Shown: one piece after another, positions 1 to 5,636 of the stretch
How positions within the stretch are numbered: the first letter of the stretch is position 1
Layout: each line of letters opens with the position of its first letter
DNA from: [Candidatus Thermochlorobacteriaceae] bacterium GBChlB
GTDB lineage: Bacteria > Bacteroidota > Chlorobiia > Chlorobiales > Thermochlorobacteraceae
DNA length: 64,000 nucleotides
Direction: 5' to 3'
Assembly: GCA_000724175.1 (NCBI GenBank)
Contig: JPGV01000009.1
Span: 1 to 64,000 of the forward strand
Notes under the pieces: model-generated
What the model saw: only the letters and a program-made list of their open reading frames with translations
What the model was told of the DNA's origin: nothing
The model's database searches: none
Translations under genes and position numbers: made by a program

Positions 1-69
1 AACAAATGAAACAATTTCGTTTTTAATTACACCCACCACAGGAACATCTAGCATGGCAATCAACCCTGT
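1..69. other. AT-rich flank left of the CRISPR array
   Basis: This short stretch has no open frame of note and no further repeat copy. At the array's spacing of 65-67 bases another copy would be expected near positions 3-39, and it is absent, so the array ends at 70. I see no sequence that could pair with the repeat as a tracrRNA anti-repeat. It could be a leader or simply flank; the sequence does not decide. Confidence 0.4.
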
Positions 70-302
70 AATGGAAAAAACTCAGATTTGAAGTCAATCC
101 ACAACTCGAGCCAACGCCGCGTATCCCGCCTCCTAATGTAACAAACTCAGATTTGAAGTCAATCCACAACATCACAATCCTGAGTGACAATCGTCAACTA
201 CAATGTAACAAACTCAGATTTGAAGTCAATCCACAACTCGACACGTTGATGGAGACGATCAACTCAAATGTAACAAACTCAGATTTGAAGTCAATCCACA
301 AT
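70..302 (-). CRISPR. CRISPR array, 4 repeats of 36 bases and 3 spacers
   Basis: Repeats lie at 70-105, 135-170, 202-237 and 267-302, with spacers of 29, 31 and 29 bases. The two middle copies are identical. The copy at 70-105 has two changes in its first eight bases, and the copy at 267-302 differs only in its last base. Read on the minus strand the repeat starts GTTGTGG and ends TTACATT, with TTGACT at repeat bases 9-14 and TACATT at bases 31-36, 16 bases apart and preceded by TG. This resembles type II-C repeats such as those of Neisseria, which carry a promoter in each repeat; 36-base repeats with about 30-base spacers also fit type II. No cas gene is in the window, so the type is an inference. 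The degenerate copy at 70-105 loses the TACATT box, as expected for the last repeat in a minus-strand transcript. Confidence 0.93.
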
Positions 303-1865
303 CTACATCGCGCCGAAGAGCATCGCAGTGCCTGCGCCTGTGATGCCGCAGATTAAATTGACAAGGTCGTTGTCCATCCAGTGATGTCCTTTGATGAGGT
401 TGTTCGGGATGGTCGTTCCGTCTTCTCTGACGCTGTGGGTGCGCTCGGTAATTTTATCGCGAATCGGGTCGTAGTATTGCGCCTGCAAGGTTGCGCCGAA
501 AATGCTGTCGAGCAAGCTGCCAATTAAGCCCGACGCGCCGACGAACACAAACGATGAGACCAGACCGAACCGCGCCATGCCATCGGCGTTGGAGAGCCAT
601 GCGCTGGCACAAATGACGAGCGCGCCCAAGAGTCCGCCGAGTGTGCCTATTGTCGTTATGCCGCCCGATGTGCCGGCGGGAACGGGCTTGAAGGTGATAA
701 TCGAGTGGGGTTTCGGGTTGCGCATCATCGTGCCGATTTCCGTCGCCCAAGTATCCGCCTGCACCGCTGCCATTGTGCCGAGATAGCCGAAGTAAATCAC
801 CTGTTGCATTGCTGGGTCGGTGGTGAAGGAGTGCCAAATCATCAAGAGCCAGCCGACGCCGCCGTTTGCCAACACCTGTCCCATATCGCGCTCCGAGCCT
901 TTTTCGAAAATCAAATCAAATTTTTTCTTGCGCGCCTTGCCAACTTTCGAGAGAATCGAGGAGAGAAAAAAGAAGGTCAAAATTGGAACGGTCCACACCA
1001 GACCGCCCATGCTAAAAATGTTCGCTGCCAAAAGGAACGTTGTCGTCGCGCCGCTTCCGTTGAGGAATTTGAGGCCCAGCGACAATCGAGCAAAAGTGGC
1101 TGAAATGCTCGCACCTAAAATGATGCTGTTTACAAATTCTGCGCCGCGCAGTTCGGGAATGTAGAGCAAATAGGCGACCGCAACGGGAATGAATAAGTTA
1201 TCCATACCGCCCGACAGCAGGGCTTCGACGGCGGTCGCCACCAGTGCCAGCGCGAGTGCGTAGCCGAGTATCACATTTGGGCTAAGCTGCGAGAGAACCG
1301 CTGATGCCGATTGAAAGAATGTCAAACATCCGTATAGCACCAGAAAGCTGACGATGAACATCACGAGCGAGCCTTCAATTGATTTTGTCGTGGTGAATTT
1401 GTATTGGCGCGGCTTTTTGAGATTTTCGCCGACAAGCGCGGCAAGCGCGTCGCCCAAGCCCAAGACAAGCATCGAGGTTTGCAGAATCCACGTGTATTTT
1501 CCCCAGCAGAGCAGCGTGAGCAAGAGAAATGAAATCGGGAAATAGACGGTGCCGTAGTTGAGCGCGTGGGTCGCCGTATCGGATTCGTCGCCGTGCAGCG
1601 ATTTTAACCAGCCGAAACGCACCGCAATCAAGTTGAACGGAATGAACAGGGCGGGAATGAGCGCAGGATAAAAATTAGACTGAAAGAAAAACGGCGCAAA
1701 GAAAATAAAGACGCCCGTCGAGATATGCACAATCTTCCGAGTGAGCTTTGCAGAGACATTCAGAAATTTTTTAAGCGCTTCGCACAGGGCAACAACGCCA
1801 AGAATCAATCCAAATGCGGCAAGAAAATACGGGAAGTCTTCCGACGGCGGCAAGGCAAGGTTCAT
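303..1865 (-). CDS. fused phytol kinase (VTE5-like) and phytyl-phosphate kinase (VTE6/DUF92-like)
   Basis: A 520-residue polytopic membrane protein with two kinase-like halves. Residues about 1-240 match the dolichol/phytol kinase family: RKIVHISTG near residue 43, GLGDALAALVG, KSIEGS and a late GGMDNLFIP motif. Residues about 260-515 match DUF92, the family of plant VTE6, with RDMGQVLANGG, ADTWATEIG and GTSGGITTIGTLGG. In the known families VTE5 phosphorylates phytol and VTE6 phosphorylates phytyl-phosphate, so the fusion would turn free phytol into phytyl diphosphate at the membrane, for chlorophyll esterification or quinone synthesis. The chlorophyll synthase at 56814 is a plausible consumer. 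The gene opens with ATG and its TAG stop touches the CRISPR array directly. Family assignment is solid; substrate is inferred. Confidence 0.8.
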   Translation of the reverse strand: MNLALPPSEDFPYFLAAFGLILGVVALCEALKKFLNVSAKLTRKIVHISTGVFIFFAPFFFQSNFYPALIPALFIPFNLIAVRFGWLKSLHGDESDTATHALNYGTVYFPISFLLLTLLCWGKYTWILQTSMLVLGLGDALAALVGENLKKPRQYKFTTTKSIEGSLVMFIVSFLVLYGCLTFFQSASAVLSQLSPNVILGYALALALVATAVEALLSGGMDNLFIPVAVAYLLYIPELRGAEFVNSIILGASISATFARLSLGLKFLNGSGATTTFLLAANIFSMGGLVWTVPILTFFFLSSILSKVGKARKKKFDLIFEKGSERDMGQVLANGGVGWLLMIWHSFTTDPAMQQVIYFGYLGTMAAVQADTWATEIGTMMRNPKPHSIITFKPVPAGTSGGITTIGTLGGLLGALVICASAWLSNADGMARFGLVSSFVFVGASGLIGSLLDSIFGATLQAQYYDPIRDKITERTHSVREDGTTIPNNLIKGHHWMDNDLVNLICGITGAGTAMLFGAM

Positions 1866-4460: not shown

Positions 4461-4493
4461 CGCCTCAATTTGAAAACTTATCTCGCTATTTCA

Positions 4494-5636
4494 ATGATAC
4501 GATACAGACAGGGCAGTTGGCTCGCGTTGGTGCTGCTTCTAAATGCGACGACTTCTTTCGCGCAAAACGCGACGGCTCCGCCTACGGTAGTTACCACCGC
4601 CGTTCCATTTCTTTTAATCAGTCCCGATTCCCGCGCCGCAGGCATGGGCGACGTCGGCGTTGCCATTGCCGATAACGCCAGCGCGGTTTTCTGGAATCCC
4701 GCCGGACTTGGCTTTCAAAAGGGGTTGGACGTAAACCTGACCTACTCCAACTGGCTGCCTGCGTTCAACGCTAACCTGTTCTACAATTACCTCACAGGAA
4801 AATACTATGTGCCGGGCTATGGCACATTCGCCCTGAGCATCATTTATCTCAACCTTGGCGAGAGCGCGTTCCGCGACGCGCAAGACCGCGACCTTGGCTC
4901 GTTCCGCAGCTATGAATTTGCTGTCGGACTTTCTTACGGCGTGCGCGTCACCAACGACCTCTCGCTTGGCGCGACCATTCGCTATATCAATTCAGCACTC
5001 ACGCCGTCTAACGTTCAAGTCGGTAACGAGCGCGGCAGCGGTCAGGGCAGCGGCATCTCGTTCGACATCTCCACCTTGTGGAAACCGACATTCAGTGGCT
5101 GGCTTTCCGACCGATTAAGCCTTGGGCTGAACATTTCCAATATCGGTCCCGCCATGACATACATTGATGCTGCACAAGCCGACCCGCTCCCGACAAATTT
5201 CAGAGCTGGCTTTGCGTTCAAACTGCTCAGCAACGATTACAACAAAATGACCGTCGCTGCCGATTTCAGCCGATTGCTCGTGCGGCGTACACAGCAAATT
5301 AACGGCGCAGACACGACGTTTCGACCAGATAACTTTCTTACCGCGCTCTTCAGCTCGTGGGGCACAGAAGCGGTGCTTCGCACATTCACGACCGGCATCG
5401 GCGTAGAGTATTGGTATGGGAAACCGTCGCTGCTTGCATTGCGCGCTGGATACTTTTTCGAAGACCAACGCGCAGGCGGACGCCAATTTCTGACCTTTGG
5501 CGCGGGCGTGCGCTACTCCTCTTTCGGCGTCGATTTCAGCTACTTACAAGCGATTGAACAAAACCACCCGCTTGCTGGCACAGTGCGCATCTCACTCGTC
5601 TTGAATTTTGAAAGCTTAGGCGCGAGACGACAATAA
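4494..5636 (+). CDS. porV: type IX secretion outer-membrane protein PorV (LptO)
   Basis: A protein of 380 residues from the ATG at 4494; the longer reading from a TTG at 4470 would spoil an ordinary signal peptide (MIRYRQGSWLALVLLLNATT, then SFAQ). The mature start TAVPFLLISPDSRAAGMGDV and the following SAVFWNPAG are the hallmark of PorV. The rest alternates short beta strands with Gly and aromatic residues, as in a FadL-like 14-strand barrel. PorV is a shuttle that carries type IX cargo from the translocon to the attachment complex at the outer membrane. The next gene encodes a protein with a type IX sorting domain, and porX lies at 48046, so the system is likely present. An intrinsic terminator follows. 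Confidence 0.87.
   Translation: MIRYRQGSWLALVLLLNATTSFAQNATAPPTVVTTAVPFLLISPDSRAAGMGDVGVAIADNASAVFWNPAGLGFQKGLDVNLTYSNWLPAFNANLFYNYLTGKYYVPGYGTFALSIIYLNLGESAFRDAQDRDLGSFRSYEFAVGLSYGVRVTNDLSLGATIRYINSALTPSNVQVGNERGSGQGSGISFDISTLWKPTFSGWLSDRLSLGLNISNIGPAMTYIDAAQADPLPTNFRAGFAFKLLSNDYNKMTVAADFSRLLVRRTQQINGADTTFRPDNFLTALFSSWGTEAVLRTFTTGIGVEYWYGKPSLLALRAGYFFEDQRAGGRQFLTFGAGVRYSSFGVDFSYLQAIEQNHPLAGTVRISLVLNFESLGARRQ

Follow-up and report, generated by a model that had tools for sequence, protein, structure and literature searches.

How does a short CRISPR array at the very edge of a Chlorobiales contig come to look as if it carried promoters in its repeats, and could each of these repeats start a crRNA of its own? 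The array lies at the beginning of contig C9 of [Candidatus Thermochlorobacteriaceae] bacterium GBChlB, base 1 of the contig being the first base of the window (the whole stretch of 64,000 nucleotides analyzed here), in a genome bin of 3.05 Mb in 51 contigs that is rated 100% complete. Four 36-nt repeats with the minus-strand consensus GTTGTGGATTGACTTCAAATCTGAGTTTGTTACATT are separated by three spacers (Table 1), and the stop codon of a gene for a DUF92 membrane protein, encoded on the same strand, directly abuts repeat 1 with zero gap. Elsewhere in the window, at 4470-5636, lies a gene for a PorV-like type IX secretion protein (Pfam PF19572).

Table 1. Features of the array and its flanks, numbered from the first base of the window; repeats and spacers are counted in the crRNA direction.
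Feature	Position	Strand	Remarks
CRISPR repeat 1	267..302	-	G1A, otherwise intact
Repeat 1 boxes	-35-like 289-294; TG 274-275; -10-like 267-272	-	
Spacer 1	238..266	-	29 nt; predicted start ~5-8 nt into it (cf. C. jejuni)
CRISPR repeat 2	202..237	-	Intact; -35-like 224-229, TG 209-210, -10-like 202-207
Spacer 2	171..201	-	31 nt
CRISPR repeat 3	135..170	-	Intact; -35-like 157-162, TG 142-143, -10-like 135-140
Spacer 3	106..134	-	29 nt
CRISPR repeat 4	70..105	-	nt 1-28 intact; G29T and A32C
DUF92 membrane protein gene	303..1865	-	Stop codon 303-305
Leader-like flank	1..69	-	Runs to the end of the contig; A-run at 46-50 nt beyond repeat 4

Judged by its sequence, the array is of type II-C, the Campylobacter and Neisseria kind, since its repeat is identical at 36 of 36 positions to the repeats of a complete II-C locus with tracrRNA, cas9, cas1, and cas2 in another member of the same family, the Thermochlorobacteriaceae MAG G002 (contig C20, JAJUFC010000019.1; loci L010/L031). 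That locus differs from the GBChlB array in having 25 repeats, all intact, which adjoin cas2, type II cas1 (TIGR03639, 286 bits), and cas9 (TIGR01865, 650 bits; a Cas9 of 1154 aa), and in occupying a different chromosomal place, preceded by a gene that we take to be dprA. Upstream of its cas9 lies a tracrRNA-like gene, in which an anti-repeat to repeat nt 16-36 is followed by a terminator-like hairpin with a T-run. GTTG-type repeats of 36 nt (or 46-47 nt) and spacers of ~30 nt are features typical of type II-C. The II-C arrangement proposed in the first-pass annotation, which was made from the letters of the DNA alone, is thus borne out by the identical repeat of the relative, and the minus-strand crRNA direction that it assumed is likewise supported.

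Among the 41 genomes searched, five gave a match to the repeat and three to Cas9, all three of the latter belonging to this family. G007 carries a near-identical repeat in 12 copies on contig C64, while its Cas9, 80% identical to that of G002, is encoded on another contig; a tracrRNA with an anti-repeat is present in both G002 and G007. The G007 array (L013, C64, 1-2063) is broken at 103-1439 by ordinary-looking gene sequence between repeats, the result of an insertion or of a misassembly. G008 has a single mutated repeat (L014, C286, 7334-7369), followed by the terminator hairpin that ends the G002 tracrRNA (compare L010, 12480-12592); it lies near the same tRNA-Lys as in G002 and near a secG-like gene, the Cas9 of G008 being on another contig. 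This repeat looks like a scar or a rearranged copy of the CRISPR locus. G006, in which no match to Cas9 or Cas1 was found, has a solo repeat (L011, C49, 9073-9108) with an intact TGTTACATT end, located after a partial copy of its own 5′ part and 20 bases 5′ of the ATG with which a co-oriented response-regulator-like gene begins, with a contig end 30 bases off; it is conceivable that this repeat has been reused as a gene promoter.

Repeats 1-3 of GBChlB each contain TTGACT-N16-TACATT, with a TG one base 5′ of the second box, and TACATT forms the last bases of each. The promoter-like string that the first-pass annotation had ascribed to every intact repeat is therefore exact in three copies, with its box closing the repeat as had been claimed, and has two mismatches in the copy at 70-105. 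In that copy, repeat 4, the only two substitutions are G29T, the G of the TG, and A32C, the second base of the box, and they remove the extended -10 box; its loss had been read correctly, but the description of this repeat as the terminal copy needs revision, as it is probably the leader-proximal repeat and not simply an end.

No match to the full string was obtained in 100 shuffles of the window. Under a strict rule (at least 5/6 matches in the -35 box, spacing of 15-19, at least 4/6 matches in the -10 box, its second base being A and its sixth T, and TG before the -10 box), the 64-kb window holds three minus-strand sites, all inside the array, and two plus-strand sites; a looser promoter scan of positions 1-2000 returned the same three sites, against 1.6 ± 1.3 in shuffles. 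When the repeat itself was shuffled (100,000 trials each), single-base shuffling gave a strict site in 0.11% and Markov shuffling in 0.25% of the trials, and at the repeat end in 0.015% and 0.03%, respectively, although these probabilities overstate the promoter case because II-C repeats share descent. The second box matches just four of the six bases of TATAAT. As evidence for a -35 box, the TTG at nt 9-11 is weak; it was probably kept for another reason, since it is common to most of the 46-47-nt II-C repeats, whose ends read CAAC or similar and lack the box. The -35 match of the promoter originally proposed thus does not count as independent evidence.

How often II-C repeats end in this way was examined across the phylum, where a search of 394 genomes with the G002 Cas9 detected relatives in 51. 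Forty-eight loci outside the family and four more were given to an array finder, and an array was recovered in 46 of these 52 (the exceptions being L023, L068, L089, L094, L101, and L105). Among the 24 distinct 36-nt II-C repeats found via Cas9 (Neisseria being left out), the last hexamer (nt 31-36) fits nAnnnT in 17. It is preceded by TG in four: those of GBChlB and G007, and the similar extended ends of Arcicella (L034; TGTTATAGT) and of L069 (TGTTACATT). A TAnnTT end located exactly 19 bases after a TTG was found in 8 of the 24. Three of 17 distinct 44-48-nt II-C repeats (L082, L095, and L113) hold TTG-N17-21-TAnnTTTG, the full promoter pattern of Bacteroidetes type, compared with a shuffle mean of 0.11. 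The second orientation of L078 was left out of these two counts.

The latter motif bears on what the first-pass annotation had presented as a puzzle, namely, that host promoters appear to follow TAnnTTTG and the repeats a different pattern. Upstream regions of divergent and tandem genes in 424 kb of the GBChlB genome were compared with shuffles. Between divergent genes, TAnnTTTG was counted 21 times (9.6 ± 2.8 in shuffles), TTG-N17-21-TAnnTTTG five times (1.1 ± 1.0), the repeat's own pattern TGnTAnAnT 11 times (4.5 ± 2.0), and TATAAT twice (4.3 ± 2.1); upstream of tandem genes, TAnnTTTG showed no clear excess (8 versus 5.5 ± 2.5), and in an open list of gapped words it ranked 11th. TAnnTTTG as a host promoter pattern is modestly supported, but the repeat fits its first six positions, and as far as sequence can tell the puzzle mostly dissolves, because TTG-N19-TACATT, besides conforming to TGnTAnAnT, fits the Bacteroidetes-type TTG-N19-TAnnTT and is short only of the final TG, which falls in the spacer. 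The proposal that spacers are chosen to complete TAnnTTTG was rejected: in 36-nt arrays ending in TAnnTT, TG occupies spacer nt 1-2 in 14 of 262 cases, against 16.0 expected, and T at spacer nt 1 is mildly raised, but this is also seen in arrays with other ends. A broader reading, which we regard as a long shot, is that II-C repeats carry the promoter type of the host's own sigma factor: the repeat of this family would borrow the last two TAnnTTTG bases from the spacer, some Bacteroidota 46-47-nt repeats would hold the whole pattern, and the GBChlB array, lacking cas genes, would persist as a series of small promoters of which the leader-side one is off. If true, how much crRNA is made would depend on the first two spacer bases.

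Among known systems, the II-C repeat of Neisseria meningitidis (Zhang 2013) is reportedly 36 nt long, with a GTTGT start and a TG-N-TACAAT end; it thus resembles the GBChlB repeat in its start, its length, and its closing TG-N and box, but its sequence is otherwise unrelated. In the C. jejuni II-C system, according to Dugar 2013 (PMC3656092), repeats end in GGTAAAAT, which is extended -10-like, and primary transcripts were mapped to spacer nt 5, whereas the crRNA 3′ end is made by RNase III with tracrRNA. The claim that such arrays dispense with RNase III is accordingly not general; for Neisseria crRNA, independence from RNase III is stated in PMC5006608. The GBChlB repeats 1-3 share with C. 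jejuni the extended -10-like end, and repeat 1 shares the A at nt 1 that another paper (PMC12080349) gives for the first C. jejuni repeat. In contrast, the box is TAAAAT in C. jejuni and TACATT in GBChlB, C. jejuni promoters have no clear -35 box where GBChlB has TTGACT, and cas9 and tracrRNA were not found in the GBChlB bin. For Flavobacterium columnare and F. psychrophilum, two reports (PMC8092290, PMC10309648) propose a repeat-borne promoter from a TTG located 33-35 bp upstream of the spacers. The idea is the same, in a phylum with TAnnTTTG promoters, but the TTG lies near the repeat start there, whereas GBChlB combines a TTG at nt 9-11 with a closing -10-type box. Riemerella is reported (PMC5006608) to be without repeat-borne promoters. 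Literature searches on Thermochlorobacter CRISPR, TAnnTTTG in II-C repeats, and orphan II-C arrays returned no paper on the arrays of this lineage.

The flank beyond repeat 4 looks like a leader, as its A-run (T at 20-24 on the plus strand) is placed much as in other II-C arrays: in 31 of 49 such arrays (L068-L115 set) the longest A-run begins 49-57 bases after the final repeat, and an A-run of at least 5 at 44-57 occurred in 0.5% of shuffled flanks. On the plus strand, positions 1-69 also form the end of a 29-aa reading frame, for which no relative was detected in 40 other genomes (best E 0.19) and no match in Pfam; it may be the end of a divergent cas2. An 18-aa minus-strand frame had suggested the start of the ABC permease gene that follows the DUF92 gene in relatives of genus g2; this was rejected, since the GBChlB ortholog (74% identity) lies on contig C44.

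According to PMC12080349, the repeats of II-C arrays carry promoters, new spacers are taken up at the last repeat, and mutations are frequent in the first repeat, which is the oldest (60% of 357). In the 49 other arrays considered here (one 33-nt repeat in L108 being left out, and L090 counted as n = 1), the first repeat was mutated in 22 and the last in only two, L074 and L078, which are broken or doubtfully oriented arrays regarded as artefacts; it was intact in 47, and 10 of the 49 are at the edge of the fetched stretch. The GBChlB array is mutated in both end repeats. Repeat 1 is probably the extra, oldest repeat of II-C arrays, and the mutated leader-side repeat at the opposite end suggests that the array no longer gains spacers.

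Cas9 and tracrRNA had been expected to the left of the array, but the left edge of the window is the contig end, and neither was found in the 51-contig bin. Cas1 was found neither with the G002 protein nor by a Cas1 family search that, as a control, gave matches in 9 of 14 genomes. A nearby type I or III cas operon, the case that the first-pass annotation had named against its own reading, was not seen by this search, and the absence from the bin of Cas1 of any type speaks against any type I or III system that encodes its own Cas1. A search of the 51 contigs with window positions 1-302, up to E 10, revealed no convincing anti-repeat or second repeat-like stretch (two weak places were inspected), and the single HNH_4 match in the genome lies in a free-standing 173-aa reading frame that is not Cas9; a search with PF18541 was uninformative, as it found no match in GBChlB or in the controls. 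Only 69 bases of contig remain beyond repeat 4, and it is on this side that G002 has its cas2, so the missing cas genes fit an orphan array and an assembly gap alike, and the cas genes may sit in such a gap left of the array. Searches beyond the genome yielded no exact spacer match in viral contigs, no match of the array DNA to phage records, and one weak Deinococcus match to plasmids (E 0.5); nothing informative came from the repeat or Cas9 relatives in viral contigs, the left flank in phages, or the array in Rfam.

We consider it likely that this is a short type II-C array in which the box-ended repeats 1-3 each launch their own crRNA precursor. The extended -10-type box TGTTACATT that ends these repeats would direct RNA polymerase to start ~5-8 bases into the next spacer, and each start would give a separate short precursor, consisting of a guide of ~22-27 nt and, from the repeat that follows, a 5′ part for pairing with a tracrRNA. 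The leader, and cas2-cas1-cas9 if still present, would lie left of the array, beyond the contig end. Repeat 4, its promoter box lost, would need only its 5′ part, as the 3′ end of the last crRNA; its predicted duplex with the G002 tracrRNA has -30.7 kcal/mol, compared with -41.6 kcal/mol for the repeat. Speaking against this reading are the weak second box, a TTG that is not specific to end-box repeats, the unusual mutation of the leader-side repeat, the lack of Cas9, Cas1, and anti-repeat matches in the bin, and the lack of exact spacer matches in viral contigs and of phage records matching the array. That the resemblance to a promoter is due to chance seems very improbable: the -10 box matches at just four of six positions, and the match had already been noticed when it was tested, but a strict site is rare in shuffled repeats (0.1-0.25%, and 0.015-0.03% at the end), and a similar end recurs in Arcicella and L069. 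Somewhat less improbable, though still unlikely, is that the repeat 3′ end is kept for Cas1-Cas2 integration at the leader-repeat junction or for anti-repeat pairing, with the promoter look as a by-product; crRNAs would then derive from a read-through precursor (e.g., from the DUF92 gene) that RNase III cleaves. In favor of this, the leader adjoins the repeat 3′ end in this II-C family, nt 16-36, box included, pair perfectly with the G002 tracrRNA, which spacer-internal starts would not need, and the TTG at nt 9-11 is common to repeats without an end box; moreover, the same-strand DUF92 gene abuts the array, and the sole terminator-like site found in 1-2000 is on the other strand. Set against this are the rarity in shuffled repeats of an extended -10 match with the proper spacing and the same arrangement in C. 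jejuni, where starts were mapped.

A dead remnant, deprived of its cas genes and tracrRNA, with a decayed leader-side repeat and with only functionless transcription, if any, is a serious possibility to which we give a little less than even weight. It is consistent with the lack of Cas9, Cas1 of any type, and an anti-repeat in the bin, with a mutated last repeat where nearly all other arrays have an intact one, and with the remnant repeats of family members (G006:C49 and G006:C78, from a genome that gave no match to Cas9 or Cas1, and G008:C286). However, the contig ends exactly on the expected cas2 side, repeats 2 and 3 are perfect, and the flank is leader-like.

Repeat-borne promoters of type II-C are already known from Campylobacter and Neisseria, with a further proposal for Flavobacterium; the array of GBChlB extends this layout, as a prediction, to a hot-spring family of Chlorobi. 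The natural repeat variants described here could serve to distinguish conservation of the repeat end as a promoter from its conservation as an integration site. If GBChlB really has no cas genes, its array would show the fate of such self-transcribing arrays after the loss of Cas9.
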